From assembly GCA_016764895.1 (NCBI GenBank), contig JAESRA010000189.1, positions 1 to 43,912 of the forward strand: a stretch of 43,912 bases of DNA. Direction: 5' to 3'. Below the pieces are notes generated by a model. That model ran no database searches. It was given only the letters and a program-made list of their open reading frames with translations, and was not told the origin of the DNA. Source of the stretch: Phycisphaerales bacterium (lineage in GTDB: Bacteria > Planctomycetota > Phycisphaerae > Phycisphaerales > UBA1924). The translations under genes and the position numbers were made by a program. This document shows, piece by piece, positions 21,116 through 38,586 of this stretch (position 1 is its first letter; every line of letters starts with the position of its first letter).

Positions 21116-22867
21116 ATGTCTGATCAGCCAACCCATTACGACATCGCCATCATCGGAGGCGGCCCATCGGGCACCACCCTCTCGTCGCTGGTGAAAAAAT
21201 ACAACCCCGACCTCTCGATCCTCATCATCGAAAAGGAAAAATTCCCTCGCGAGCATGTGGGTGAATCCCAACTCCCGGGAGTTTCAGTGGTGCTTCACGA
21301 GATGGAGGTTTGGGATAAGGTGGAGGCCGCGAATTTTCCGATCAAACTCGGCGGCTCCTACACCTGGGGCTCAGACAATGGCGCATGGGACTTTGACTTC
21401 TACCCAGCCGAAGAGTTCTCCGACGAAGAACGCCCCGCCAAGTATAAAGGGCAACGCACACACACCGCTTTCCAGGTCGAACGCGACCGCTACGACGAGA
21501 TTCTCCTCCGTCATGCCGAAAGTCACTGGGGCGTTGAGGTCCGCGAAGAAACCATGGTCCGCGAGATCCTCAGAGAGGGCGATCGTGTCATGGGGCTCAA
21601 GCTCGATACGGGCGAGGTCATCACCGCAACCCACTATGTCGATGGTTCTGGTCACCCCGCGCTGCTCCGCAAGGCGATGGGTGTCGAATCCAAACCAACC
21701 GACGGGCTCAAGAATGTCGCCTTCTGGGATTATTACGACAACGCGACCTGGGCCGTCGAGATCGGTATCGGGGGCACTCGTGTCCAGGTCCGTTCACTCC
21801 CCTACGGCTGGATATGGTTCATCCCACTCGGCCCGTCCCGCGCCTCGGTCGGCTTGATCTGCCCAAGCGATTACTACAAAGAATCCGGGCTCACCCCCAA
21901 AGAACTCTTCCACAAAGCACTCAAAGAACAACCCGAAATCAGCGAACTGCTCAAGGATGCCAAAAGTTCAACAGATGAAAATGTGCTGACGACCAAGAAC
22001 TGGTCGCACCTCGCCGACCGCCTCGCCGGGGAAAACTGGTGGATCATCGGCGAAGCCGGCGGGTTCGCAGACCCCATCCTCGCCGCCGGGCTCACCCTCG
22101 CCCACGGCTCGGCCCGACACGCAGCCTATTCGATCCTCGAAATCGAACGCGGCGAGCAAGACACCGAATGGATCAAATCCTTCTACGACGAAAAAAATCG
22201 ACGGAATGTAAACCAGCATATTCGCTTCGCCAAATATTGGTACGCCGCCAATGGATGCTTCACCGATCTCCAAGAACACTGCCAGAAAATTGCCAAAGAC
22301 GCCGGGCTCAAACTCAATCCCTCCCAAGCATGGAGATGGCTCGCCCAAGGCGGGTTCTCAAATCAGAACATCGAGACTGCCGCATTCGGAGCCTTTGATC
22401 TTGGCTCATCGAAAAAACTCGTTGAAATCTTCTCAGGTAAAGAAAGCAAATTTAACATCACCAAGTTCAACCATCTGACGCTCAATCTTAAAAATACCCA
22501 GCAGATAACCCAAGGCAAACTCGCCAACGGAAGCATCGAACAGGTCAAGTCCTATCAACGCGGCGAAGCGATCCTCCCCTACACAGGGCTCTGGAAGCAG
22601 ATTATCGATGTTCTCAAGGTCGAAACTGATTTTCAAACAATCTTCGAGAGTCTCCAAGCCGCCGTGCTTCAAGGGTCGGACAAAGGGGCCCAGAAGACAA
22701 TCATGTTTCAGTATGTCCAGGTTCTGGAAGCGATGCTCATTGACGGATGGATCATTGGAAAGCACAACAAGAATCGCCCAAAGTTCACTCTCAATACGGG
22801 TGGCAGCCGCATGATCCGATCGGCAGCGGAAGGCCAACAAGCGGTCAAAGATTCGAAATCCAGATAG
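21116..22867 (+). CDS. Flavin-dependent halogenase-like oxidoreductase
   Basis: A 583-residue FAD enzyme. The Rossmann dinucleotide motif GGGPSG is at 14-19. HVGESQLPG (48-56) follows as in FAD-dependent halogenases and related monooxygenases. The halogenase hallmark WxWxIP is exact at 232-237 (WIWFIP). K77 in FPIKLGGSYTWG sits where halogenases carry the Lys that holds hypohalous acid. The FxxPxxSxG motif is present as F317-ADPILAAG325, with Ala replacing Ser at 323. The Glu specific to tryptophan halogenases is absent, so a phenol/pyrrole-type or unexplored substrate is more likely. The last ~180 residues are unassigned. No carrier protein or biosynthetic cluster is adjacent. It could also be a halogenase-fold monooxygenase. 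Confidence 0.8.
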   Translation: MSDQPTHYDIAIIGGGPSGTTLSSLVKKYNPDLSILIIEKEKFPREHVGESQLPGVSVVLHEMEVWDKVEAANFPIKLGGSYTWGSDNGAWDFDFYPAEEFSDEERPAKYKGQRTHTAFQVERDRYDEILLRHAESHWGVEVREETMVREILREGDRVMGLKLDTGEVITATHYVDGSGHPALLRKAMGVESKPTDGLKNVAFWDYYDNATWAVEIGIGGTRVQVRSLPYGWIWFIPLGPSRASVGLICPSDYYKESGLTPKELFHKALKEQPEISELLKDAKSSTDENVLTTKNWSHLADRLAGENWWIIGEAGGFADPILAAGLTLAHGSARHAAYSILEIERGEQDTEWIKSFYDEKNRRNVNQHIRFAKYWYAANGCFTDLQEHCQKIAKDAGLKLNPSQAWRWLAQGGFSNQNIETAAFGAFDLGSSKKLVEIFSGKESKFNITKFNHLTLNLKNTQQITQGKLANGSIEQVKSYQRGEAILPYTGLWKQIIDVLKVETDFQTIFESLQAAVLQGSDKGAQKTIMFQYVQVLEAMLIDGWIIGKHNKNRPKFTLNTGGSRMIRSAAEGQQAVKDSKSR

Positions 22868-22901: not shown

Positions 22902-22951
22902 CGGGGTCAAACGGGGTCAAACGGGGTCAAACGGGGTCAAACGGGGTCAAA
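22902..22951. repeat. Five perfect tandem copies of a 10-bp unit (CGGGGTCAAA)
   Basis: Five identical consecutive decamers lie between two convergent genes. The last unit supplies the TGA stop (22947-22949, minus strand) of the WecA-type gene. The period is close to one DNA helical turn. It is not a CRISPR array: there are no spacers and the unit is far too short. The array may vary in copy number between strains. Confidence 0.95.
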
Positions 22952-24248
22952 CGGATTTGTTATTGCCCGGGACCTGCGTCTGCGCTTCGTGCTGTGATCG
23001 GCGAGCGATCTTAATCGCATACACCCCGATGTAGAACGCAACAAGCAGCACCAAAGCATATATAAACCGCGCCTGGAACTTGCTCAAAAGCACGCCCAAT
23101 ACACAGAACACAAGCCCGATCCCGTAGAGCGCAAACACCGCCCCCTTGACTCCCAGCGAACGCTTGAGCATATGGTGCAGATGGTCAGCATCGGGATCAG
23201 ACATCTTCTTGCCCGCAAGCTTGCGCCGGATAATCGCCAGCATCGTGTCGATGATGGGGATCGAATAGATAATCAATCCCGCAAAAACCAAGCTCGTTTG
23301 GCCTGTATCACCCAACGACAAAATCATCAGCGCCGAGCAATACCCCAGCAATAACGACCCGGTATCCCCCAAGAAGATCGCAGCCGGATTAAAATTATGA
23401 GGCAAGAACCCCATGCACGCCCCAAGAATCGCAAGCCCAACAATAATCCGAGGCCCATCCATCGGCCCATTGTCAGCAAGCGCCATCCCCGCAGCAATAA
23501 ACAAGAACCCGACCATCGCAATCGAGGTCACACCGGTCAGCAACCCATCGAGCCCGTCAATAAAATTCGACGCGTTGGTCGCCCCAAGCACAAAGACCGC
23601 GATCACCACAGTCCCAGACCAATATATAAAGTCCAGTTCCACCGAAGCCCCAAAGCCAGGAATGGTCATCGGGAGCGGAATCTCATAGATAAGCTCTGGA
23701 TTATGGAGCAGCCGACCAAGCGTGGGCCTGAGCACCCCTTCAGCAACATTAACACCCACATCACCGATCGCCAGAGCCGCAGCCGCCATCAACTGCCCGC
23801 CAAGCTTGACGCGCGCTGAAACACCTTTGATATCGTCGATCAATCCGACAATCACAATGATCGTCATCCCAAGGGCAATCCAAGGCGGCACCTGAGGCGT
23901 AAAGACACCGTCCGTAAGATTTTCAGGTCCGATCTCGTGGTATTCGATCATGCCAGGAACTGAGTCGGCAAAGTACGAATACATAATCCCGGCCATGATC
24001 CCGACATACACCGCAACACCACCAAGATACGCGATCGGCATCTTGTGCTGCTTGCGAGCTTCATCAGGATGATCCACAATCCCATTGGAAATCGCTAAAC
24101 GACGAACCAAAGGCGTAATCAAAACCGTCACCAAAAACGCGATCACAAAGACCCCGATGTACCCCTGGAGAATCCCCAATGCAGGCGCTGGGGCCGACGG
24201 TGGAGTTTCGACGACCGCCGGGATGACATTGAGCAGAGAAAGAAGCAT
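22947..24248 (-). CDS. WecA/MraY-type polyprenyl-phosphate glycosyl-1-phosphate transferase
   Basis: A 433-residue polytopic membrane enzyme with about ten to eleven hydrophobic segments. It would start glycan synthesis by moving a sugar-1-phosphate (often GlcNAc-1-P) onto undecaprenyl phosphate at the inner membrane. The magnesium-site motifs are visible: GLIDDIKG, NFIDGLDG, FLGDTGS, and the His-rich loop DADHLHHMLKR. It resembles WecA/TagO more than MraY of peptidoglycan synthesis, and it lies in an export locus. ATG 24248 overlaps the stop of the upstream epimerase gene (TGATG), with AAGGGG nearby, so translation is probably coupled. Its TGA stop is formed by the tandem repeat. Confidence 0.92.
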   Translation of the reverse strand: MLLSLLNVIPAVVETPPSAPAPALGILQGYIGVFVIAFLVTVLITPLVRRLAISNGIVDHPDEARKQHKMPIAYLGGVAVYVGIMAGIMYSYFADSVPGMIEYHEIGPENLTDGVFTPQVPPWIALGMTIIVIVGLIDDIKGVSARVKLGGQLMAAAALAIGDVGVNVAEGVLRPTLGRLLHNPELIYEIPLPMTIPGFGASVELDFIYWSGTVVIAVFVLGATNASNFIDGLDGLLTGVTSIAMVGFLFIAAGMALADNGPMDGPRIIVGLAILGACMGFLPHNFNPAAIFLGDTGSLLLGYCSALMILSLGDTGQTSLVFAGLIIYSIPIIDTMLAIIRRKLAGKKMSDPDADHLHHMLKRSLGVKGAVFALYGIGLVFCVLGVLLSKFQARFIYALVLLVAFYIGVYAIKIARRSQHEAQTQVPGNNKSV

Positions 24249-25270
24249 CACGAGGCCCCTTCCGTCATCTGCGATCCTGATCGTGCAAACTCGGCCATAT
24301 CGTGGATCGTGTCTTTGAGTCCATAGTCATATTCAAACTCAACAAATGAACGCAGTCGTGTCAGGTCAGGCCTCCGGTGCCGGAGATCTTCAAACCCGGC
24401 GGGGTACGCCTCTGAATACTCCACCCGTTGAATGGTTGACGAAGAGTTCAGTTCTTGGATCACAAGTTGAGCCAGTTCAATGATCGAGATGGAGAGATCA
24501 GATCCCACATTGATCACCTGTCCATGGGACTCAGGGCATGCAAGGAGTTTGGGAAGCACTCCAACAACATCCCGCACATCACAGAAGCACCGTGATTGCA
24601 GCCCATCGCCGAAGACCCGCAACGGCTGCCCGTCAAGTGCCGATTGCACAAACCGCGGGAGCACCATCCCATAGCTGCCAAGCTGCCTTGGCCCGACCGT
24701 GTTAAAGAATCGGGCGACCACCACAGGCAACTGATGTTGTTCCCCGTAGGCAAGAGCCAAGTATTCATCAATGGCCTTGGTGTGTGCATACGACCATCGT
24801 TTGATCGAGGTCGGTCCATAAATAGAGTCGTCTTCTTCAGAGAAGACGCTGGCTCCGGGCTTGCCGTAGACCTCTGAAGACGAGGCGATGAAAGTGGGGG
24901 GGGATCCGTTCTTGCTTGCAAACTCAAGGATCGCGTCGGTCTGCAGAAAGTTGGTTCTGATCGATCCGATGGGATCTTTGAGCACAAGGTCCACCCCGAC
25001 TGCGGCGGCAAGGTGATAAATCAGATCAAACCGAGCATCATCACCAGAGAGATCATCAAGCCCATCGCTGAGATTGCTCCGGGTAAACCCGACCCGTTCT
25101 CCATGGTGGCTCAAATTGTCTTGAGTACCGGTCGAGCAGTTATCGATCACGAGAATTTGATCGCCCATCGACACATGATGATCCACCAGGTGCGAGCCGA
25201 TAAACCCCGCCCCGCCGGTGATCAGCACTCGCCTGGAGCGAGCCTGTGGTTCTGGGGATAAAGATGCCAA
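24248..25270 (-). CDS. NAD-dependent NDP-sugar epimerase/dehydratase (extended SDR)
   Basis: A 340-residue sugar-nucleotide enzyme. It has the NAD-binding motif TGGAGFIG (about 18-25), the SSSEVYG active-site Ser/Thr strand (about 130-136), and the catalytic Y161-AHT-K165 pair. It further shows RFFNTVGPRQ and a FGDGLQSRCF-CDVRDVV segment, as in UDP-glucuronate decarboxylase or UDP-glucose/GlcNAc 4-epimerase relatives. The exact substrate cannot be fixed. The start is a TTG at 25270 with GGAAGG about eight bases upstream; no ATG precedes the conserved fold. It would supply a sugar nucleotide for the polysaccharide made by this locus. The spacing to the upstream Wzz/BY-kinase gene is 39 bases. 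Confidence 0.9.
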   Translation of the reverse strand: MASLSPEPQARSRRVLITGGAGFIGSHLVDHHVSMGDQILVIDNCSTGTQDNLSHHGERVGFTRSNLSDGLDDLSGDDARFDLIYHLAAAVGVDLVLKDPIGSIRTNFLQTDAILEFASKNGSPPTFIASSSEVYGKPGASVFSEEDDSIYGPTSIKRWSYAHTKAIDEYLALAYGEQHQLPVVVARFFNTVGPRQLGSYGMVLPRFVQSALDGQPLRVFGDGLQSRCFCDVRDVVGVLPKLLACPESHGQVINVGSDLSISIIELAQLVIQELNSSSTIQRVEYSEAYPAGFEDLRHRRPDLTRLRSFVEFEYDYGLKDTIHDMAEFARSGSQMTEGAS

Positions 25271-25309: not shown

Positions 25310-27535
25310 TTACGCCGCTGTATCTTTGGGAGAGACTTTGGATGTCTCCTCTTTGGATCGATAGTTGAATGAGGTGCGGATATTCTTGCGCATGTACCCG
25401 CCCGCAGCACTCCGTACCGCGTTGACCAGTACCCCAAGGAACTCGGCACTGCTTTCATTGAACTCACGAGACATCCGGGCGACTTGCCCGCGTTTCTCGC
25501 TCATTGCGCGTACTACAAGCATCGAAGCATCCGCCATATTGGACAAGATGACCGCGTCACCAGCGACGATCGCCGGAGCGACATCGATCAGCACGAGGTC
25601 ATAGTTCTCCTTTGTTTGCTGGAGAAGTTGCTTCATCTTCTGACTACTCAGTTGCTCGGCCATGCGATTCTTTGAACTACCAACCTGCAGCACACTGAGC
25701 CCGTCGTTGACTTTAATAACACAAGATTCCAGCGAACTCTCGCCTGCAAGCACATCACTAAGCCCAGGTCCAGCCTTGAGCCCAAGAGCCGTATGGATTC
25801 CAGGCCTGCGAATATTGGCATCGATGATGAGCGTCTTGGTGCCATTGGCCACCAAAGACTGAGCCAGATTCGTGATCACACTCGTCGCCCCGGATTGAGG
25901 CATCGCCCCAACAACAACCAGCGAATGATGCCCGGCTCGATGAATCGAGGCACTGACATTGGTCCGGAGTTGTCGAATATGCTCAGCAAATACAGAATCG
26001 GGTGCATCGGCAAACGCGGTACTGATGGTTTTGGGTGCCGATGGATCCTCACAAGCATCCAAAAGCATTCCGAGCGATCGTGTTCTGGGGATCATTCGAA
26101 TATCAGATGCACTCTGAATCCGTTGATCGAGCATTTCAAAGAGAACGATCACGCCGACGGTCAGACCAACAACAATAAGCATGCCCGCAGGGACGATGAC
26201 AAAGAGGACCGGGAAGGTCGGAAGATCAGGAACCGTTGCGGCCACCTTAACCTCGACACGCTGCGCGCTGGTCAAGCCCGCCGCGGCCTGAAGATCAGAG
26301 AGTGATTTCTCTTGCTCACCCATCTGCGCAATCCGGGCATCGATCTGGCGATCTATATCAGAAATCTCTTCGCCGATACGAGTAAGCTCTGTCAGCTTCT
26401 CTTCGAGAACTTCTTTCTGTGCAAAGAGTTCAGATTCCTGAGCCCGAAGTTGCTGGATCGTAATGATGGTACTCTGCACGCGAGACTCGAATGCCTCACG
26501 GAGCAACTCTTCGCGAGCACCCTCAATCTTCCGATTGTGCGCATCAATTTGAGCAATAGTCTGCTTGTACTGGCGGTGGTCAGGCTGAATGCCGGTTGCC
26601 TGAAGCGCAACTAGAGATGTTTCAAGCCGCTTGATTTCCTGTTTAAAGGTCAGCATCATGACCGATGTTTCGATCTGGGCACGCAGCGCAGAATCGTACT
26701 CGATCCCGGTATCTCTCTGGAGCTGGGCATCATCGTTTGCACGAATTACAGAGAGTGCTTCAAGCGATTGCTGAATCCCGAGCAGTTCCGAGTTAATAAG
26801 TGTCAACTGCACCGAGGCTGTGGACTCGTCAGACTGAATCGAATCGATCCGCCCTTCGCGCACCAGCCGTATCTTTTGCCCTGTGAGTTCTGCAATCGAA
26901 ACATTGGTTGCCCGGATCGAATCCTGAATAGCCTTGCGCCGAGAGACAATGTCTCGTTTGTATTGTGTATCAAGATCGCCGAGGTACGCATCCTTGACCA
27001 TGGTCACAAGACCCGCAGCATCATTCCTGTCGCGAGTTGTTACCGCAAGGCGGATGAGAAAGGTGTTGGGAAGACTGTACGCCCGGACCATGCTTTCGAA
27101 ATCTTTGATCGCATTGACGACATCAATGTTTCCTTGTTTCATGTAGTGGCTGCTCCAGCGAGGCGCAAGACTCGTGAGCCGAGGGTCGTTGATGACCTTA
27201 CTCAGAATGTAGGTGTCCTTGATCGTTGCAACCTGTGTCCCGATAAACCGATCCATCTCGGTTTCATCAACCCGCGCCACACTAATCACTTCAACGGCCT
27301 CTTCAGCCGGAGAACATTCGAAGATAATCTCAGAAGTATACAGCGGGGCAAGCCGGGCAAGGGCAAAGTACGAAACGATGCCAACGACAACCCCTACAAA
27401 CACAGAAGCAATAAGCGTGAACTTGTACTTATGAAGAAGTTTAATAGGGTCAATCGAAACCCCGGCCGCAGCACTCGGTGCTTGGGGAGGGCGATTGGCG
27501 GGGCCAGGCTTGGCGGAAGGTGGTGTATTGCTCAT
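25310..27535 (-). CDS. Wzz/BY-kinase fusion with degenerate ATP-binding site
   Basis: A 741-residue inner-membrane protein of the polysaccharide co-polymerase type. It has a Pro-rich N-terminus, a first transmembrane helix (about 38-60), and a long periplasmic coiled-coil region. A second helix (about 445-470) precedes a cytoplasmic MinD/BY-kinase-like ATPase domain. Such proteins set chain length and couple synthesis to export. The Walker A site should read GxGK(S/T) but reads S-G549-A550-T551-S552, so the invariant Lys is Ala. Walker A' reads IID572-A-N574, with Asn for the second Asp. Walker B (LVLIDVAPA) keeps its Asp. The C-terminus has only two Tyr and no tyrosine cluster. Autokinase activity is therefore doubtful. 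Confidence 0.9.
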   Translation of the reverse strand: MSNTPPSAKPGPANRPPQAPSAAAGVSIDPIKLLHKYKFTLIASVFVGVVVGIVSYFALARLAPLYTSEIIFECSPAEEAVEVISVARVDETEMDRFIGTQVATIKDTYILSKVINDPRLTSLAPRWSSHYMKQGNIDVVNAIKDFESMVRAYSLPNTFLIRLAVTTRDRNDAAGLVTMVKDAYLGDLDTQYKRDIVSRRKAIQDSIRATNVSIAELTGQKIRLVREGRIDSIQSDESTASVQLTLINSELLGIQQSLEALSVIRANDDAQLQRDTGIEYDSALRAQIETSVMMLTFKQEIKRLETSLVALQATGIQPDHRQYKQTIAQIDAHNRKIEGAREELLREAFESRVQSTIITIQQLRAQESELFAQKEVLEEKLTELTRIGEEISDIDRQIDARIAQMGEQEKSLSDLQAAAGLTSAQRVEVKVAATVPDLPTFPVLFVIVPAGMLIVVGLTVGVIVLFEMLDQRIQSASDIRMIPRTRSLGMLLDACEDPSAPKTISTAFADAPDSVFAEHIRQLRTNVSASIHRAGHHSLVVVGAMPQSGATSVITNLAQSLVANGTKTLIIDANIRRPGIHTALGLKAGPGLSDVLAGESSLESCVIKVNDGLSVLQVGSSKNRMAEQLSSQKMKQLLQQTKENYDLVLIDVAPAIVAGDAVILSNMADASMLVVRAMSEKRGQVARMSREFNESSAEFLGVLVNAVRSAAGGYMRKNIRTSFNYRSKEETSKVSPKDTAA

Positions 27536-27615: not shown

Positions 27616-30600
27616 TTATTCGGCTGAGTCGATCTTGACTTCAATCTCATCTACTTGTTGTTCAAGTCCAATATCACGCGTAGGAATGGCCCGAAGCAAG
27701 GATCGAATATCGAGAAGCTTCGATTTTGCCTCCTCAACATTTCCTTTAGCCAAATCAATGTTGATCTGGGCGATGATCAGCGTGATGCGGGCTCGGACCG
27801 ATAATGTGTACTTCATGCCCTCGTTGAGCATATTCTCCGCCTTGTCATACTGACCAAGTGCGGTATAAATGTTCCCAAGTGTATCATATGGCTCTGACCG
27901 ATTCGGGTTCGATGCAATCGCTCGCTCGGCAAGCTTCAACGCACGCTCATGCTCGCCCATCTCTGCGGATAGCACATAAGCAAGGTTATTGCTCATCTCC
28001 CAGTCATTCGGAAAAAGCTCGGCACCCTGAGACCAAATTTCCGAGGCCTTGACGAACTCATCGGCAGTATACAAAGTCGTGCCGTAGCTCTGGAAAGAAA
28101 TCAACTGCAACCTAGGCTGATTGCTGACCTGCATCAGACGCTCGTAAGTTGAAATGGCAAAGTCACGCTGTGACCCGACACTAATCAACCGCTGGGCGAT
28201 AAAGAGATCAATCCAGTTCAGCACTTCCTGGTTCGGGTTCCGTCGCTTGAGCGTCTCCAGATAGTTGATCTGGTCCTGCATCGACTGCCCCTCGAAGTAG
28301 CGAGTAATATTCCCAGACCACTGGATGAGCAACTGGTCAGAGTTTGACGAAAGATCAAAGGCCTTGGTTAGCTGCTGGACAGCAAGCTGGTCCCGCCCGC
28401 GTGCCTTGAGAACAAGAGCCTGTGCTGCAAGAAGTCCGGGGCTCGAATCGACCTGACCGGCGATTGCCGTCAGGTCGTTGATGACCGCATTGGCAAGTTT
28501 CGTGTCTGGATTTCGCGTCCGAACGATCGCATCAATCAACGCCGAACCCGCGCTGGGCGAGCGTTGAGCATCCCAAGCAAGCTTGTAGAAGGTCGTTGCA
28601 TGATCCCAGTCGTCTCGTGATGAGAAAAGCTGGCCGAGTTGATTGATCAACGATGCGTTCTGGCTCCGGAGTTCGACGATCTCTTGGGCAAAGTCGAACG
28701 CCTCGGCGTTGCGACCATCAATCATAAGCTCATTGATAATCCCGAACAATGCCTGGTCCAGCATCGGGTTGAGCCGAACGGCACGCTGCAGATCACGCAT
28801 CGCGTTGTCACGCTGGTCAACAGCAAAGTACCCCGCAGCCCGGACCCGGAACGCACGCCAATCGTTGGGATTGATCTGGAGGGCCGCATCGACATCAGCC
28901 AGCATGTCAGCCATATCCTCTTCAGAACCCGAAAGGAACTCGGCTCGTTTAACAAACACAACCGAATTGTCAGAATAGCTGGCAACCGCTTGGTCAAGTA
29001 AATCTCTTGCCTTCTGCAAATTGCCCAAGCCTTCTTCGATCTCAGAACTTTGCAGCAAGGCAATCATTGTGTCTTTCTTCGATGAATCAAGAAGGTTAAA
29101 CTGGACACGAGCATCTGCGAACTGACGCGTCCGGATCTGCATGTCGACAAGCCGGAGCCGGTAGAGGTCATCCTCATCGATGCCCGCATCAACAACAGTC
29201 CGAAAAGCATTCGATGCGTTGGTAAACTGATTGAGCATCATAAACAAATCGCCCAGAAGCTTTGTCCCCTCGAGTGTCTCGGGGTTCTCTCGGCTCACAG
29301 CATCCATAGCCGCCTGGATCGCAAGATTATGATGCCCGCGTTCAAGCATAAACCGAGCCAAGCCAATGTAAGGCCTGGTAGATCCATCGTCTTGATGGGC
29401 TTCAATGTAATCAAGATAGATCTGCCGGGCGGCCAACAGCCCGTCCTTGTCTCCGACACGCCCTTGATTGGCGTACCATTTTGCTTCGAGCTCAGCATAT
29501 TGAAACTTGTCCTCAGAAGCACGCAGGTCGTCGATCAAAACCCGAGACTCATCCCAGCGGTCCGTCGAGACATACAGGTTGGCCAGAGCAAACTTGTTTT
29601 CGATGTTGTTGGGGTCGAGTTCTAGGAAATTTTCTCGCTGCCGGATCGCGTACTCCTGCCCTTCAACGCCGCCGTAGCCGCCCTCTAAAGAGAGCCACAT
29701 CGACACAAACTGAGGGTCTTCGTTGGCGTATCGCTGGAACCGGCGTGCAATATCAAGCGCGTCTGTATACCGACGCATCCGAATCAGGGCATTTATATAA
29801 GTGAGAATGCTCGATCGGTCATCGGGCCGGATACTCAATGCTTGCTCAAAGGATTCAACCGAGGCCTCGATTTGCCCCAGCATCATCTGCTCAATAGCGA
29901 GCATCTTGTACAATGACGAATCGGCAGCACCACCAGAAATCGCCTGCTGATAAAGCTGAATGGCTTGCTCATGGCTTTCTTCATAAGAAGCCAGCCGGGC
30001 CTGGTAGCTCAATCCATTGACGCGATCAGAGTTATGTGTCTGGGCGTTCTTCGCTATATCCTTGGCTTTGTCGACTTGATCCAAGGCCAGTGCGCGAACA
30101 AAGGACATATCAATGACCCGATAGTCGTTGGGGGCAAGTTCTACAAGTTGCCTGAGCGTGTCGTCAAGAATCTCAACTTTACCTCGTGCTGAAGAAATAC
30201 TGGCGATCGAAATGAGCTGTTCCAACGGGTCCGTCTTTGAGTTTTTGAGTATTGAAATGAGAATCTCAAACTCGTCATCACTCTGGACTGCTTCAAAGAG
30301 ATCGGCAAGTCCTTGGTCGTCTGGGTTGGCTTCAACAGCAAGTTTCAGCAGGCTTCTTGCCCCAATAATATCTCCCTGATCGAGCAGAACAGTCGCCAAC
30401 TCTCGGGTGATTCTCGGAGCATAGTTCACCGATTCAATGCCCTCAGTAAGGACCGAAATCGAAGCCGACAAATCGCCGGGATTCTCATTGTTGCCCCGGC
30501 GAAGACTCCGGGAGGTGAGAATGAGTTCAAGCACGGGGTCATTAAGCAATGATGGATCTTCAATCGCGTTTAGATTGATAATCCCATTGCGGGCTATGCG

Positions 30601-32253
30601 GTTGTCAGGATCGTAAATCAAAACCTGCTCGTACAGTGTTTTGGCCTTTCGGAAGTCTTGGAGCTTTGTTTCGATATTGGCAAGCATAAGCAAGGCGCGA
30701 AGATCATACTGTTGATGCTTAAGCAGATTTATCAAAGCCGTGCGAGCGGTACCGTTCTGGTTCAGCTCAGTTGCTGCCAAGGCCTCAAACCAAAGTCCGC
30801 GTGCCTTCGACCTTGGGTTGTCGTTCAGATCAACAAACTGCTTAAACAAGCGCAAAGCGTCTTCTGTTTCGCCGTGGGCATATGCAATCTGTCCATCGAT
30901 GAGCATCAGGGGTGTATTGTCTTCGGTGACCCGCTCGGCATAACGATCACGAGCTTGAATCGCTTGGGCAAGAATCTCGGCAACCTCATCTTCACTGGCA
31001 TCTTTGCTTAGGCTCAGCCGTTGATATTCTTCGAGCTTCATCGATGCCTTGGTAATCAACGCTTCGCGCTGGGCACCAAAGATATGGACACCTTGAGTAG
31101 AAAGAGGTGGGATGGGGAGGTTGGTGATCTGTTCATAAACTTGGGCAGCTTTGGCTGTTTCTCCAGTGGTGATGTAAATCGACGCCGTCGCGAGCAATAG
31201 GTCCGATGATGAAGGGTTCGCTTCGATCAGTTTCTCGAAGATCGTGATAGTCCGGTCAAATCTGCGAAGTGGATCAGTCAAATATTCAACCAAACGAAAA
31301 TTGTTTGCCGCCGCAAGAGACAACTCGGCTACAGGCATGTCCATCAATGCAGTATGGATAGCCTCAAGCCGTGGCGAGAACCCAAGTAGCACCTCCTGCA
31401 CAGCCTTTGTTCGAGCAGATTCGTTGATCGGATGAGCTTCATAGGTAGCCGATCGAGCCAGTTCCATCTCGATCATCAATGTTGTCACCAGCGTCATCGG
31501 CGAGTTGGGATGCTCTTGATAGTGCTTCTTGCCCATGGCGACCGCTTCGGTGCGTGCCGCAACAACGCCGGATTTGTCATCATTCTTAACTGTCTGGGTT
31601 TGTTCATAGACCGTCCATCGCATCAACGCACTTCTGGCACGATCATCGTTTGGGTTGGCCAAGAGCGCGGCGGTTAGATCATCACGGACCAACTCGTACT
31701 CATCTTCTTCAATAACACCATTGGAAGCAGAAATCCGTTCCCATGCAAGCCCGCGATACCGGCGGAGCGTAGGCCAATCCTCATCAACGCCGGGGATGCC
31801 GTCAAAAAATCCGAGTGCCTCGGTTGTTCGCCGGATGAGTTGGTCCGCTTGGTTGCGGTTATATCTCCGTGCCAGTGCGTCGTAGGTAATCCCAAGTTCT
31901 CTGTGATACGCTTCAAGATTATTCCGCTGAACAATCGAGGCCTGACGAATAGCCCCGAGGTAATCGATCCGGAATGCGTCGTAGTACGCGGTCTCGGTTT
32001 CAGGAGTCCACTGTTCCAAGGAACTGATCCACTTATTGATATTCTCGGCAACGGTGGGATCCTTATTGACCGCCTTTGAGTAAAGCTTGCGGGCAAGATC
32101 AGTGTCCCCCTCCACCATCGCTTTATCGCCTAAGGCCACAAGGTCATCGGCAGTCTTGTACACCGCAGAATACGCCGCAAAGAGCATCCCCAGCATCGCC
32201 ACGACAGCCACAATCAAGATGATGACAAACTTAGTATTCACACGCGATGCCAT
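27616..32253 (-). CDS. Very large membrane-anchored TPR protein (1545 residues)
   Basis: A single-pass protein whose N-terminus TKFVIILIVAVVAMLGMLF (about 7-25) is a transmembrane anchor. The rest is almost entirely helical repeats of tetratricopeptide type, for example LVALGDKAMVEGDTDLARKLY near residue 38 and GNIYTALGQYDKAENMLNEGM near the C-terminus. TPR solenoids act as protein scaffolds. By position it resembles the large TPR proteins (PrsT-like) of exosortase/PEP-CTERM loci, but those are lipoproteins and this one has no lipobox. ATG 32253 has GAGG nine bases upstream. It lies 80 bases before the Wzz/BY-kinase gene and 121 bases after the EpsI-type gene. A periplasmic location is inferred. 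Confidence 0.88.
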   Translation of the reverse strand: MASRVNTKFVIILIVAVVAMLGMLFAAYSAVYKTADDLVALGDKAMVEGDTDLARKLYSKAVNKDPTVAENINKWISSLEQWTPETETAYYDAFRIDYLGAIRQASIVQRNNLEAYHRELGITYDALARRYNRNQADQLIRRTTEALGFFDGIPGVDEDWPTLRRYRGLAWERISASNGVIEEDEYELVRDDLTAALLANPNDDRARSALMRWTVYEQTQTVKNDDKSGVVAARTEAVAMGKKHYQEHPNSPMTLVTTLMIEMELARSATYEAHPINESARTKAVQEVLLGFSPRLEAIHTALMDMPVAELSLAAANNFRLVEYLTDPLRRFDRTITIFEKLIEANPSSSDLLLATASIYITTGETAKAAQVYEQITNLPIPPLSTQGVHIFGAQREALITKASMKLEEYQRLSLSKDASEDEVAEILAQAIQARDRYAERVTEDNTPLMLIDGQIAYAHGETEDALRLFKQFVDLNDNPRSKARGLWFEALAATELNQNGTARTALINLLKHQQYDLRALLMLANIETKLQDFRKAKTLYEQVLIYDPDNRIARNGIINLNAIEDPSLLNDPVLELILTSRSLRRGNNENPGDLSASISVLTEGIESVNYAPRITRELATVLLDQGDIIGARSLLKLAVEANPDDQGLADLFEAVQSDDEFEILISILKNSKTDPLEQLISIASISSARGKVEILDDTLRQLVELAPNDYRVIDMSFVRALALDQVDKAKDIAKNAQTHNSDRVNGLSYQARLASYEESHEQAIQLYQQAISGGAADSSLYKMLAIEQMMLGQIEASVESFEQALSIRPDDRSSILTYINALIRMRRYTDALDIARRFQRYANEDPQFVSMWLSLEGGYGGVEGQEYAIRQRENFLELDPNNIENKFALANLYVSTDRWDESRVLIDDLRASEDKFQYAELEAKWYANQGRVGDKDGLLAARQIYLDYIEAHQDDGSTRPYIGLARFMLERGHHNLAIQAAMDAVSRENPETLEGTKLLGDLFMMLNQFTNASNAFRTVVDAGIDEDDLYRLRLVDMQIRTRQFADARVQFNLLDSSKKDTMIALLQSSEIEEGLGNLQKARDLLDQAVASYSDNSVVFVKRAEFLSGSEEDMADMLADVDAALQINPNDWRAFRVRAAGYFAVDQRDNAMRDLQRAVRLNPMLDQALFGIINELMIDGRNAEAFDFAQEIVELRSQNASLINQLGQLFSSRDDWDHATTFYKLAWDAQRSPSAGSALIDAIVRTRNPDTKLANAVINDLTAIAGQVDSSPGLLAAQALVLKARGRDQLAVQQLTKAFDLSSNSDQLLIQWSGNITRYFEGQSMQDQINYLETLKRRNPNQEVLNWIDLFIAQRLISVGSQRDFAISTYERLMQVSNQPRLQLISFQSYGTTLYTADEFVKASEIWSQGAELFPNDWEMSNNLAYVLSAEMGEHERALKLAERAIASNPNRSEPYDTLGNIYTALGQYDKAENMLNEGMKYTLSVRARITLIIAQINIDLAKGNVEEAKSKLLDIRSLLRAIPTRDIGLEQQVDEIEVKIDSAE

Positions 32254-32374: not shown

Positions 32375-33277
32375 TCACTCCACCGGAGGTGGATAAACCC
32401 CCTGCTGCACATCGACCCAGTCCGGGGTGCAGCGCATCATTTCGCCAAGTAAATCACTTATAAGCTGTCCCGAATATTCGACAAACTCCTCCATCGAATC
32501 AGCGGTCACACAGTTCAACTGAATCTTCAGGTAATACGCATAATCATCCGTCAAGTTAAACGCCAAGGTGCGAACCTCGTTGGCGTTGGCCTTGGTGCCC
32601 CCATTGGCAATAAAGAAATACCCCGCATAAATCTTACGGTCATCCCCGATAGTAAACTCAGAGCACCGCATCAGCAAATCATTCTCAGGCGTCACATCAC
32701 GCGGCAGCCGGATACGCTGCCCAGGGGCATCAGTCCATTTCCGATTATTGCTCAGTCGCACGGAATACAACTTGCCAGAGAGCCCCGCCAGTTCTGCGGG
32801 CACCGAACTGTCGTGACGCCATGAACTCGTATCAAGATCAAGCTTTATATTCCGTGAAGATTCGCTCTGTTGCAATCCCCCGCCCACAAAACACCGTTCA
32901 GGCACATGAGGCACCGTATCAATCATCCCCGTGTAATACGCGGCATGGAGTTCAACGACAACAGGGTTCTTGGTGTTCTGCGAATCTTTCCGAATGTAAT
33001 CACGCGAAACATAGTTCTGGGTGCCCAATGTCTCGATGACCTCGCTCGACGAGATCCGATCAGAACCCAGCCGAATCCAGTTCTTGGTTTCTGTTGGGAT
33101 TGCAGAAACTTGCCGGTTATTCTCCGGGTAGATCGGAATCTTCTGCATATGCAGATCCGCGAACTTGATATACGCGCTGATCCCAACGGTCGCCCCGATC
33201 ATCACGATCGCAGCGAGTGCCGGCGCCAAGATGCTCCCGTTTCTTTGCGTATTTCCTTGACCGTTTTTTCGATTCAT
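32375..33277 (-). CDS. Exosortase-associated EpsI-family protein
   Basis: A 300-residue protein with one N-terminal transmembrane helix (about 18-37) and a periplasmic EpsI-type domain. The family hallmark is visible as YYTGMIDTVPHVPERCFVGGG, with H124 and C129 in the conserved H-x-P-E-x-C arrangement. EpsI proteins are fused to, or encoded beside, exosortases and are needed for polysaccharide export in some species; their biochemical role is unclear. ATG 33277 overlaps the exosortase stop codon (ATGA), so the two are translationally coupled, which strengthens the assignment of both. Confidence 0.9.
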   Translation of the reverse strand: MNRKNGQGNTQRNGSILAPALAAIVMIGATVGISAYIKFADLHMQKIPIYPENNRQVSAIPTETKNWIRLGSDRISSSEVIETLGTQNYVSRDYIRKDSQNTKNPVVVELHAAYYTGMIDTVPHVPERCFVGGGLQQSESSRNIKLDLDTSSWRHDSSVPAELAGLSGKLYSVRLSNNRKWTDAPGQRIRLPRDVTPENDLLMRCSEFTIGDDRKIYAGYFFIANGGTKANANEVRTLAFNLTDDYAYYLKIQLNCVTADSMEEFVEYSGQLISDLLGEMMRCTPDWVDVQQGVYPPPVE

Positions 33278-34227
33278 GCCGGCTGCTCCTGACCGCTACC
33301 AATAATCCGGTTAAGCATCCAAACTACACCCATAAACAACCCGAGCGAAGGGACAAGCAATAAAGTCCCAATGATCGTGTGGGCATCGCCCGAGGCAAGA
33401 TCAGGATCAACCAATGTGAGCAATCCCAGCACAGTCACACGAACCATATTCATCAAAATCGCAACAGGACCAGCCAAAAGAATCAATGCGATTCGCTGCC
33501 ACCACTGCGTGCAACCAAGCAACGCAACCGCCCCGGCCAACGCATAAAAAGCCACCACCATACGCATCCCCGAACACGCCTCGGCAACATTAAGTGGATG
33601 CAGTTCCCCAGAACTCGTCAATATATCAAGCCGATTACCCACCAGATCAACAGAGAACCAACCAAACGGCTCACCAATCACACTCAGCATCAGCCAAGAG
33701 CCTTGCGAGGCAAGCATCTGGAGTTTGAAAGTCACCTGAAGCATAATCGCTTCGGAAATTGTGATCATCAAGAGTAAATATAAAATCGGCAAGAAAGCAT
33801 ACCGCAACATCGCCGGTCCGGTAATCATCAACACCATCGAGCCCAAACTCAACACCATCGAAAAACCCTGAAGCATCGGATTGCTAATAAAGAACAAATT
33901 ATACGAATACGCAAATATCCCAACCAAGAACGGCACGATCGCAGGCCAAAACACCCGCACCTCCGTCTGCGCAATCTTCTCACGACTCAGCCACAACAGA
34001 TACCCAGATATAAACGGAATCACCAACGCATGACCCCAGTCCTCTTTGTTCTCCCAACTCATCTTTAGCTGGAACAAAAACCACTGGTGAAAGAGCCAAA
34101 CAAACAACACGCCCAGCACACCAGTAATCACCAGCCCTCGCCGGGTGAACATACCAAGTATCAACCCTTCGTCATCGCTGGACGACTGAGCTGGAATCGG
34201 GTTGGGGGATGTACTCTGGGTAGTCAT
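33274..34227 (-). CDS. xrt: Exosortase (transpeptidase-like membrane protein-sorting enzyme)
   Basis: A 317-residue integral membrane protein with about eight hydrophobic segments. It carries the three invariant exosortase residues in the expected context: C218 in VAEACSGMRM, R263 in ILMNMVRVTVLG, and H283 in GDAHTIIG. Exosortases recognise a C-terminal PEP-CTERM-type tail, cleave it and are thought to transfer the protein to a surface partner. The catalytic set is complete, so it should be active. No matching substrate tail was found on any protein in this window. No strong ribosome-binding site precedes ATG 34227. The exosortase subtype is not assigned. Confidence 0.93.
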   Translation of the reverse strand: MTTQSTSPNPIPAQSSSDDEGLILGMFTRRGLVITGVLGVLFVWLFHQWFLFQLKMSWENKEDWGHALVIPFISGYLLWLSREKIAQTEVRVFWPAIVPFLVGIFAYSYNLFFISNPMLQGFSMVLSLGSMVLMITGPAMLRYAFLPILYLLLMITISEAIMLQVTFKLQMLASQGSWLMLSVIGEPFGWFSVDLVGNRLDILTSSGELHPLNVAEACSGMRMVVAFYALAGAVALLGCTQWWQRIALILLAGPVAILMNMVRVTVLGLLTLVDPDLASGDAHTIIGTLLLVPSLGLFMGVVWMLNRIIGSGQEQPA

Positions 34228-34410: not shown

Positions 34411-35970
34411 TCAGTTCGTTCTACTAAACGGCGGAGGACCAAACACATCATTACCAAAGTTGCGGTCAAGCAAGAACCCAAACCCGTAACTCGTCCGGAA
34501 TCCGCCTCGAAGCACCGCCAGAGGCGTCGCCCAGAAATTCGTGCCCACATTGATCCGGTCATCAGGCTTGATGTACACATCAGGCTGCGTCCCCTCCTGA
34601 ATCGCCCGGAGATTCAGCATAATCGTCGCCTGCTCATTTACGCCCACAATTCGGGTCAAATCGACCCGTTCAGGGATTGCAAGGCCATTGAGCCCGCCCG
34701 CACTGGTAATTGCCCGTGTCAGGGTCAAACGCCCGGCCACAGGCAAGTTGTACACGCCAGGCCCGTTGACCTGACCATCAATATACACATTGCCAATCGG
34801 TGACGGAGGCACACTCACAATGTCACCAGGCCGAATCACAATATTGTATCGAGCGTCCCCAGCAAGCAAAGGCTTCACCGGGATACGGATCTTCCGCTGC
34901 GTAAAGAGTTGCCCACGAGAATCCGTTGGTGTCATCCTGCCGTCGGCAGCCGGGATCATCCGTCTGGCCGCGACCGGGATCGACTCACGAACCCAACGCC
35001 CATCGACAAACCGCCACCGAGGCGTCAGCATGGCAGAACTGGATTGGGTGATGTTTTGGCCCTCAAAACCAGCGGAATCAGCGGATTGACCGTTATGCTG
35101 GATCGGCTCAATCAGATCAATCAGCGGGTCATGACCACCGGGTGCCGAAGGAGCAATCAAACCATTGCCAGAGCCTGAGATCATCCCAGGGCTCGAAAGA
35201 TCATCAATCACATCAAGCAGGTCTTCACCATCAGGCTCATCGAACAGATCAACCGAGGGAACACTCGGCAACGATTCCTGCTGAATCGTGCTGAGTGAGT
35301 CATCTAAAGGGACCTGTCGAATCACATAAATATTCTCGACAAACTGAGGAATCCCGCCAGCACTCACAAGTCCTTGGAGAATCCTAAAGTCTGAACTAGG
35401 AACAAGATACGGCCCAGGATTCGACACATTGCCCATCAAAAAGAATGTCTGCTCACTTCGTTGCTCAACAACCACCGAAACAAGGGGGTCGGCCACCAGG
35501 GTAATCATCGTTTCGGCGATTCGTTCGCTGACTTCTTTTTCGGTTAATCCGGATATAAAGATCCGTCCAAGTTGGGGGACTTCGAGGTATCCATTGGGAT
35601 CAATCTGTCGAATCAAGATTTCAACCTGATTTGTCGCGATCAGGTCCCAGATACTCAGCGTGAGTACATCGCCTGCAGACACTCGATATACCGTTGATTG
35701 TGGGATCAAATCTTCATTGGTAATCTCAGAAATTTCAACCCATTCATCGGCCGGAGCCTCGATGGCGGCCAGATGCTCAAGAATCGGAACGCGCGTCGGG
35801 GTGTGCTCCCAGCGTCCGGTAATACTCGGGTTCATGAATGAATCATTGACGATACATCCACCCAGAGGTACCAACAGGGAAGCCAATCCGGCCATCATCC
35901 CAAACTTGAATATCGAGCAAAGCTGGCTCTGGGTTCTCAATACACCGGGTTTCAAAGTCTTCTGGGACAC
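34411..35970 (-). CDS. Outer-membrane polysaccharide export lipoprotein (Wza/SLBB type)
   Basis: A 519-residue export protein. The start is taken as GTG 35970 because AGGAG lies exactly seven bases upstream. The product then begins MSQKTLKPGVLRTQ with a hydrophobic stretch ending in the lipobox LGGC, placing the lipid on C39. A longer frame from 36024 would put residues before a poor signal. The polysaccharide export (Poly_export) domain follows (about 95-190, YRVSAGDVLTLSIWD). Two SLBB-like regions come next, one with FFLMGNVSNPGPY and one with VYIDGQVNGPGVYNLP. A variable Asp/Gly/Ser-rich insert separates them. It would form the outer-membrane channel partner of the Wzz/BY-kinase protein and appears to be the first gene of the locus. 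Confidence 0.92.
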   Translation of the reverse strand: MSQKTLKPGVLRTQSQLCSIFKFGMMAGLASLLVPLGGCIVNDSFMNPSITGRWEHTPTRVPILEHLAAIEAPADEWVEISEITNEDLIPQSTVYRVSAGDVLTLSIWDLIATNQVEILIRQIDPNGYLEVPQLGRIFISGLTEKEVSERIAETMITLVADPLVSVVVEQRSEQTFFLMGNVSNPGPYLVPSSDFRILQGLVSAGGIPQFVENIYVIRQVPLDDSLSTIQQESLPSVPSVDLFDEPDGEDLLDVIDDLSSPGMISGSGNGLIAPSAPGGHDPLIDLIEPIQHNGQSADSAGFEGQNITQSSSAMLTPRWRFVDGRWVRESIPVAARRMIPAADGRMTPTDSRGQLFTQRKIRIPVKPLLAGDARYNIVIRPGDIVSVPPSPIGNVYIDGQVNGPGVYNLPVAGRLTLTRAITSAGGLNGLAIPERVDLTRIVGVNEQATIMLNLRAIQEGTQPDVYIKPDDRINVGTNFWATPLAVLRGGFRTSYGFGFLLDRNFGNDVFGPPPFSRTN

Positions 35971-36512
35971 GGGCTTGCTCCTGCATTCATTCAAACCATA
36001 ATCGACATATTCAAACACGATCAAACATGATCAACAAGACCCAAGCGGTCAATTCAGATCATGGCACAAATTACATCGAGAACATGGCGTAAACGCCTCG
36101 AATGCAACAGTGTAGCACCCGCCAAGCAAATCGCTTGGTTCTCTGATTCGCTCCATCGACCACCAACGCCCCTCAAGTTGATTTCAACACCGAAAAACGC
36201 ATAATTTTCGGGCGTTAAGACAAGATTGCGCCATACTTCGGTGTCAAACCAAGCCTCTTGAAGATTGGCAATGATCTCAGAAACGAATCACTCCGATATA
36301 TACGACGCAAAGATTCCCCTCGTTCTTACAAATCAGCTCTCTCGGACATAAACTCTCCCGTGCCAAACAATCCTTCAAACCCGTCGCCGCCTTCTCAGAG
36401 TGATTCTCCAAAAATACCAGAATCCAGCCAATCCCGCACCCTGAGCCGCCACCCAAGACCCCTCGGAGGCGACCCCATCGCCACCCTCAAACCCGCCTTC
36501 TCCCTGGGCTCC
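35971..36512. promoter_or_regulatory. Divergent region between the export locus and lipA
   Basis: It contains several short inverted repeats: GATCA-AACA-TGATC (36019-36032), GGCGT-AA-ACGCC (36086-36097) and CCAAGC-AAATC-GCTTGG (36122-36138). A plus-strand promoter candidate for lipA is TTGATT (36178-36183), a 16-base spacer, then CATAAT (36200-36205). Bases 36258-36512 are open in the lipA frame but encode a Pro/Ser-rich stretch unlike LipA; I leave it outside the gene. No other gene is seen. Confidence 0.4.
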
Positions 36513-38335: not shown

Positions 38336-38586
38336 CCCCAACTCTAGCCCGAAACCTCCATCGGGCATGATCGGACCCGCAACCCAAGTCCGATTACCAA
38401 TCCCTCTCGCCCAATCGGAACAGCCGCTCCATCCTGCTGTACCAATCCAGAGATATTTGCGCATTGTTCGACAACATATAGAACATTCAAAGCAGCCGCC
38501 CGATGCACACTATTGAGACATCGACCCCGCCACAAATCGGGGCACGATCAGGACAGGGCGACCGAGGGACAGGGAGGATTTGTATC

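Follow-up and report, generated by a model that had tools for sequence, protein, structure and literature searches.

Can a polysaccharide co-polymerase work for long without the catalytic lysine of its own tyrosine kinase domain, and what would such a domain then do? This question is raised by a gene in a 43,912-nucleotide stretch of DNA from a Phycisphaerales bacterium (contig JAESRA010000189.1 of GenBank assembly GCA_016764895.1, a draft in 268 contigs that is 84% complete); we refer to the whole stretch as the window. The gene lies at positions 25310–27535 on the minus strand and encodes a 741-residue protein that Pfam and NCBIfam scans, phmmer and an AlphaFold2 (AF2) model indicated to be a polysaccharide co-polymerase (PCP) of the PCP-2a type. 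Co-polymerases are thought to require cycles of tyrosine phosphorylation to produce long polysaccharide. Our favoured reading, to which we give a probability of about 0.6, is that the bacterial tyrosine kinase (BY-kinase) domain of this PCP-2a protein has become a pseudokinase in which the nucleotide site persists, making it a natural counterpart of the K540M mutant of Wzc.

The protein has the layout of a co-polymerase, with two predicted membrane helices, a long helical stretch between them and a C-terminal BY-kinase-like domain without the Walker A lysine. In the full-length AF2 model (mean predicted local distance difference test [pLDDT] score 86.3, predicted template modelling [pTM] score 0.53), helices 38–62 and 444–469 read as transmembrane, with long helices between them; this predicted combination of two transmembrane helices, a periplasmic helical part and a fused BY-kinase domain is that of PCP-2a proteins. 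The best PDB match to this model was Wzc K540M (E 7.6e-28), over nearly the whole length, with a TM-score of only 0.32 because domain angles differ between the model and Wzc. The AF2 model of residues 468–741 had a mean pLDDT of 94.1, and for the BY-kinase-like domain (residues 505–727, the span used for the conservation count; positions 25355–26023, minus strand) the strongest VIA fold matches were CapAB (3bfv, Z 33.8), CapAB K55M (2ved, Z 33.7) and Wzc K540M (7nhr, Z 32.4). The first 19 fold-match rows were all BY-kinases, with Z from 33.8 to 24.8, and MinD came next at 16.8. On these models, the domain is predicted to have the BY-kinase fold. BcsQ, TadZ and CpaE are ParA-like proteins of the same superfamily that have a P-loop without lysine and no PCP part; identity with ParA, TadZ or BcsQ was rejected, since the BY-kinase fold matches were far stronger (BcsQ, Z 14.6).

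Against NCBIfam, the window protein scored 114.2 bits for the 'tyrosine autokinase' model TIGR01007 (eps_fam), above the cut-off of 108.05, so that automatic annotation would label it a kinase. The scores for TIGR03018 (XrtA tyrosine autokinase; 104.2 bits, cut-off 230.65) and TIGR03007 (chain-length protein; 27.5 bits, cut-off 278.85) fell short, and membership of the XrtA kinase family was rejected on this ground. The systems behind these two models are likewise exosortase-linked and have the same domain types; the window protein differs from them in being fused and in lying under both cut-offs. The Pfam Wzz domain PF02706, a remote family, was not among the window-protein matches at E<=0.01.

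An earlier note on the window, made from its letters alone, had claimed that the Walker A lysine is replaced by alanine in a frame that aligns without gaps to the BY-kinase P-loop, and both points were confirmed. On the minus strand, the degenerate Walker A motif P546-Q-S-G-A550-T-S552 (positions 25880–25900; codons CCT CAA TCC GGG GCG ACG AGT) starts its PQSGATS at residue 546, and phmmer aligned the P-loop with that of Wzc without gaps, placing A550 opposite residue 540, an engineered Met in the K540M PDB chain. A550 thus fills the lysine slot, and GK(S/T) is absent. Walker A' reads D572-A-N574-I-R576-R577 (positions 25805–25822, minus strand), preceded by L-I-I, and is DANIR in place of DxDxR, with N574 in the slot of the second Asp. 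Walker B is V648-L-I-D651 (positions 25583–25594, minus strand). The C-terminal tail, from G712-G-Y714-M-R-K-N718 to Y725 (positions 25361–25402, minus strand), has only two tyrosines, Y714 and Y725, rather than a cluster, and residues 715–731 form a helix of lower confidence in the AF2 domain model. With a BY-kinase fold kept and the catalytic lysine lost, the domain would, judged from its sequence, class as a BY pseudokinase.

To place this loss, we used a class-wide search, which gave matches at E<=1e-10 in 393 of 397 genomes. We extracted 159 proteins; G397 had been included twice, and removal of one copy left 158 rows, made up of 97 aligned members of the window's order (families f1–f5 and f28) and 61 class members from outside it. 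The latter were selected, 35 among the better matches listed and 26 to cover more families, f20 not among them. Of 124 order genomes met, 119 orthologues were read (the 97 aligned ones and 22 read later, which stand outside the tree and the column counts); G402, G403, G405 and G413 were not read, and G066 was the exception. None of the 119 orthologues had Lys or Arg at residue 550. Among the 97 aligned members, the residue was Ala in 37, Thr in 32, Ser and Val in 11 each, Gly in three, Cys in two and Asn in one. In the 61 members outside the order, the residue was Lys in 38, Arg in 19, Ala in two, and Thr and Ser in one each. Ala is also present in the closest relative that turned up, L217, at 82% identity. 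The close relatives with GK(S/T) that the earlier note had named as evidence against its claim did not appear. The best 80 of 535 relatives in named records gave the same picture, with Ala in 59, Ser in nine, Gly in six, Thr in four, Asn in two and Lys in none; these loci are mostly titled Phycisphaerales and may overlap the genomes of the 119-orthologue set.

In planctomycetes outside the class, the equivalent residue was Lys in 20 out of 20, position 574 was Asp in 19 out of 20 and most tails were rich in Tyr, which makes Lys the ancestral state. We built a tree (LG+G4, quick search) rooted with these 20 outgroup rows, which did not form one clade and gave a long-branch join warning among themselves. 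The order formed one clade with support 100, the class one clade with support 95, and f8 was sister to the order with support 77. Scored as Lys/Arg versus neither, residue 550 changed twice, the second time in G008 of f12. Besides a separate case in G008, Lys was lost a single time, long ago, before the order diversified, and f8 shares this loss with weak support (77). As the homologues were chosen as best matches to a query without Lys, paralogues that also lack it might be over-represented; the locus context, with an exosortase in 77 of 81 loci, argues against such a bias.

Several further observations came from this survey. Lys-less members outside the order were L178, L190 and L215 (f8) and L180 (G008, f12), and all four have Tyr in place of R576. 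The Walker A Lys has been replaced by Arg (GDGR/GEGR) in several separate families of the class, namely f14 (12 out of 12), f24, f23, f25, f9 and one f18 row; all sampled members of f14, f23, f24 and f25 (17 out of 17) have Arg. In G066 (f2), the best match, L119, is a fused kinase of a different type that has Lys and is rich in Tyr, and no Lys-less orthologue was found; G066 is a true exception in gene content among the order genomes. The record of L238 (RHKP01000022.1) bears the title 'Cyanobacteria bacterium CYA', yet its co-polymerase is of the usual Phycisphaerales kind; it is likely a mislabelled or mixed metagenome-assembled genome.

The rest of the active site has been kept. Among the 97 order members, G549 was present in 97, Ser or Thr at 551 in 97, N556 in 96, D572 in 94, and N574, R576, G619 and D651 in 97 each; the Walker B Asp thus remains, as the earlier note had it. 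Y714 was present in 96 and Y725 in 97. Eleven of the 223 domain columns were at least 99% identical, including those of G549, N574, R576, G619, D651 and Y725. The P-loop Gly, the Ser/Thr after the Lys slot, the DxN and Arg of Walker A', the Walker B Asp and the two tail Tyr are under strong constraint. Rough ratios of nonsynonymous to synonymous substitution (dN/dS) for the domain against the window protein, with dS near or above saturation, were about 0.06 (L217), 0.12 (L218) and 0.11 (L219). Sequence comparison thus points to strong constraint on site and domain, and so to no decay.

Two claims of the earlier note stood in part. The second Walker A' Asp is indeed changed; N574, however, is no mark of kinase death, because it occurs in 97/97 order members and also in 60 of the 61 sampled elsewhere in the class, where 37/38 proteins with Lys, 19/19 with Arg and 4/4 with neither have it. 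Its presence in only 1 out of 20 outgroup rows makes the change from DxD to DxN older than the loss of Lys, and N574 was rejected as a sign of decay. The C-terminal tyrosine cluster is indeed missing, with two or three tail Tyr in 83 out of 97 order members, but Y714 and Y725 have been kept. Other positions set the order apart: N718 was present in 93/97 order members versus 6/38 Lys-keepers, and residue 548 was acidic (Asp or Glu) in 33/38 Lys-keepers and 19/19 Arg members, being Ser, Ala or Gly in 95/97 order members.

The gene kept its slot in an exosortase and exopolysaccharide (EPS) locus while Lys was lost in the order's ancestor. We compared 81 loci, 65 from the order and 16 others. Upstream in the window, on the minus strand, lie genes for a PrsT-like tetratricopeptide repeat (TPR) protein, below cut-off (27616–32253; in 57/65 order loci and 7/16 others), a DUF3485 protein (32375–33277; PF11984, 34.1 bits; 63/65 and 12/16), an exosortase (33274–34227; PF09721, 145.7 bits; 77/81 loci) and an SLBB/polysaccharide export protein (34411–36024; PF02563 and PF22461; 61/65 and 14/16). 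Downstream, also on the minus strand, are an NAD-dependent epimerase/dehydratase (24248–25270; PF01370; 41/65 and 1/16, the latter 7 kb away) and a WecA-like glycosyltransferase family 4 (GT4) protein (22947–24251; PF00953; 60/65 and 0/16). This setting, an EPS locus with SLBB/Poly_export upstream and GT4 and epimerase downstream, is that of a PCP-2a gene. In the four loci without an exosortase (L039, L060, L100 and L106), the contig ends before the upstream stretch is reached; 29 class-wide-search loci besides the window's own had little flanking DNA. Exosortase, TPR protein and GT4 were found in all 51 named loci with both flanks.

The upstream order of export protein, exosortase, DUF3485 and recognisable TPR protein is the same whether or not Lys is present. 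Measured from the co-polymerase centre, the upstream distance of the exosortase is about 7.1–8.1 kb in Lys-less loci and 6.9–7.7 kb in Lys/Arg loci, except for one f18 Lys/Arg locus, where it is 1.7 kb; the distances of the export protein and DUF3485 are likewise similar in the two groups. This shared context supports the co-polymerase gene with Lys and that without being the same gene; the downstream epimerase and GT4 belong to the order's own version of the locus. The earlier note had spoken of a complete exosortase locus. The exosortase locus is there, but 'complete' is loose, as the Pfam scan of 28 window open reading frames (ORFs) found no Wzx or Wzy family.

How a domain without Lys might serve a co-polymerase is suggested by Wzc. 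Changing K540 is reported to abolish phosphorylation, and Wzc K540M is described as unphosphorylated, forming stable, homogeneous octamers with MgADP bound; in the wild type, one subunit's tail enters the next subunit's site, and phosphorylation dismantles the octamer (excerpts of PMC8285477). In the open state, a salt bridge between Lys540 and the Walker B Asp642 is reported to prevent efficient ATP-Mg binding (excerpts of PMC8517177). By analogy with K540M, we infer that the site in the window protein still binds Mg-nucleotide without autophosphorylation. In a Lys-less domain this bridge could not form, so that a closed, nucleotide-loaded octamer ring would be expected as the default, the closed, octamer-forming state being favoured. 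The kinase-like domain would then probably be an assembly scaffold, not an enzyme, with the job of holding the co-polymerase ring together, and ring assembly and turnover would be set by nucleotide state or exchange or by partner binding, replacing the tyrosine phosphorylation ratchet. The earlier note's kinase-dead domain appears lineage-wide: it is Lys-less in 119/119 orthologues, fused to an exosortase-locus co-polymerase and, on the K540 precedent (PMC8285477), probably dead.

The tails fit this scheme in part of the order. The YxY pair of Wzc is described as a clamp and ratchet (excerpts of PMC11986026). Outside the order, YxY at 723/725 was present in 31/38 Lys-keepers and 16/19 Arg members; within it, YxY was present in 4/4 f2, 7/13 f3, 2/45 f1, 0/30 f4, 0/4 f5 and 0/1 f28 members. 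The near-complete loss in f1, f4 and f5 fits a scaffold without a phosphorylation ratchet.

Several results weigh against a phosphorylation-free pseudokinase, the strongest being a low-molecular-weight protein tyrosine phosphatase (LMW-PTP) encoded in some of the f4 loci. PF01451 was near-universal (149/150 genomes), but strong LMW-PTP matches (E<=1e-30) were found in 18 of 24 order genomes versus 1 of 126 others; the 18 include G066, in which no Lys-less orthologue was found. An argument for a pseudokinase from missing phosphatases was rejected on this result. Directly after the GT4 gene, 9 of 30 f4 loci (L053, L056, L061, L064, L067, L068, L070, L072 and L074) carry an LMW-PTP gene, and stand-alone gene status was checked at these nine loci only; they correspond to exactly one subclade of the tree. 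All nine proteins keep VC(M/L)GNICRSP, with CX5R intact, and the DPYYG loop. In seven of the nine genomes there was no other TIGR01007 match at E<=1e-12; G167 has one, and G392 fell outside the search. LMW-PTPs can have other substrates, and none was found in the 80 named loci. The near-invariance of Y714 and Y725 is a further objection, in that an unphosphorylated tail would not need to keep them. D572 is not Asp in 3 of the 97 order members, and in the 22 later-read rows R576 is missing from L346 and D572 is replaced by Glu in L352 and L354. EX2RX2R is the oligomer interface of BY-kinases, and the window protein has E518-H-I-R521-Q-L-R524 there (positions 25964–25984, minus strand). Its Glu was present in 96 of the 97 and its first Arg in 97, but the second in just 63, which makes ring formation in f4 and f5 uncertain. 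Finally, catalysis in Lys-keepers may already be weakened by DxN, and if so the loss of Lys would not be the deciding step, and an Asn-to-Arg switch at position 624 (positions 25664–25666, minus strand) could compensate for the lost Lys.

The rival explanation that we rate highest, while considering it unlikely, is that a different kinase phosphorylates the tail in trans; the cycle would then be split, with the Lys-less domain as a regulated partner. The earlier note had offered a separate active kinase as one way in which chain length might be set. We searched 111 order genomes with TIGR01007, counting further matches at E<=1e-12 (TIGR01007, phosphatase and locus tallies beyond scripted totals were counted by eye). 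A separate kinase fits f2 and f3: the stand-alone BY-kinases in 18 f2/f3 loci (17 genomes) all had GK(S/T) and 3–11 Tyr in the last 45 residues, at least 22 of 31 f3 genomes had a short BY-kinase-like frame (483 amino acids or less), and f2 and part of f3 retain YxY on the Lys-less protein. It does not fit the window genome (84% complete), in which no other TIGR01007 match lay above cut-off, other kinase types not having been searched. Nor does it suit the 14/33 f1 and 21/31 f4 genomes (35/64 together) that had exactly one match; in all 35, the Walker A of that gene was read and lacked Lys. Many f1, f4 and f5 genomes do have a second match, mostly another fused co-polymerase paralogue, which kept an intact GxGK(S/T) in 31/31 read of 32 (L312 was unread; one of the 32 is from f3), yet with 0–2 Tyr in the last 45 residues it seems a poor match for such a cycle. 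Set beside the window protein, this paralogue would represent complementary degeneration, Lys without Tyr beside Tyr without Lys. These second paralogues (L148–L158, L167 and L297–L316) mostly have DxDLxG for DxDxR. Lys-bearing DxD kinases also occurred in G096 (f1), G401 (f5), G397 (f28), G066 (f2) and G414 (f3), with a Tyr-rich C-terminus in G066 and G414 only.

We rate as quite unlikely that the protein is still an active tyrosine autokinase, in which R624 or a residue of the neighbouring subunit holds the phosphates and Y714 and Y725 are the targets. WNK kinases of eukaryotes replace the catalytic Lys by another basic residue. Position 624 was Arg in 73/97 order members, with Lys or Arg in 0/38 Lys-keepers and 0/19 Arg-keepers. 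As candidates for a relocated Lys, nine positions had more Lys/Arg in the order or in f1 than among Lys-keepers (472, 484, 486, 529, 530, 624, 681, 696 and 717), of which 624 is the most suspect; the window protein itself has A529 and S530. R624 is not universal, however, and is confounded with ancestry, being a feature of one clade. The near-invariant tail Tyr and the intact-motif phosphatase next to the gene, mostly in genomes without another TIGR01007 match, would suit an active kinase; the phosphatase could act elsewhere, YxY is nearly gone in f1, f4 and f5, and the effect of changing K540 on Wzc phosphorylation (PMC8285477) argues against activity. A specific form of this idea, a 'with-no-lysine' P-loop tyrosine kinase in which R624 or the neighbour's tail allows slow phosphorylation of the two Tyr, reversed in one subclade by the locus phosphatase, is more doubtful still; if true, such a kinase would span an entire bacterial order.

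Neutral decay, with a vestigial kinase domain and only the membrane and periplasmic part mattering, is very improbable: residue 550 drifts among Ala, Thr, Ser, Val, Gly, Cys and Asn and the number of tail Tyr drops, but the remaining site has been kept in 97 genomes at dN/dS of about 0.06–0.12. A strain mutation, assembly error or misaligned frame, for which a fragmented draft in 268 contigs might speak, was rejected as having next to no chance, since 119/119 orthologues and 80/80 named-record loci are Lys-less.

BY pseudokinases as such are already known. Wzc K540M and CapAB K55M (PDB 7NHR, 7NIH and 2VED) have the same fold, an uncharged residue in the Lys slot and an otherwise present site, but they are engineered changes of active kinases with Tyr-rich tails, whereas the window protein is natural, belongs to an order-wide series and has DxN and, mostly, two or three tail Tyr. 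EcpK of M. xanthus and HfsB of C. crescentus also have a BY-kinase fold without kinase residues and serve a PCP-2; both are stand-alone, unlike the fused window protein. EcpK is reported to have a helical, basic C-terminus and to lack any Walker motif or tail Tyr (excerpts of PMC12004946), whereas the window protein keeps D572, D651, Y714 and Y725. From their description in the same source, after Cuthbertson et al., S. meliloti SMc01795 and others are likewise fused PCP-2a proteins with a kinase-like domain judged inactive. R. leguminosarum PssP2, fused and judged inactive, is reported without Walker A, A' and B (excerpts of PMC4182512); the window protein keeps most of the site. This group comes from different phyla, and the excerpts of PMC12004946 and PMC4182512 describe no order-wide series. 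S. aureus CapB1 and B. subtilis PtkB are naturally inactive BY-kinases described as paralogues beside an active copy (excerpts of PMC3795738), whereas the Lys-less protein is often its genome's only match. Among the literature matches listed (titles and abstract openings), no Lys-less BY-kinase of Planctomycetota was reported. The present case stands out in that a whole order lost Lys after the earlier change to DxN, while the remaining site stayed nearly constant.

If the domain is a pseudokinase, the order appears to have been long sustained, in an old locus, by what amounts to a natural version of the laboratory's standard kinase-dead mutant. Because relatives with Lys, with Arg and without Lys are all on hand, phosphorylation versus nucleotide-dependent ring assembly is directly testable. 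The results also suggest that the 'tyrosine autokinase' label, which TIGR01007 gives above its cut-off, is wrong for the window protein and similar ones.

Two other ORFs of the window, both on the plus strand, deserve mention. One (38503–41031) is 842 amino acids long and had no Pfam family at E<=1e-5. The other (21116–22867), beside the EPS locus, encodes a tryptophan-halogenase-like flavoprotein (PF04820), for which the closest NCBIfam model, under cut-off, was CmlS.

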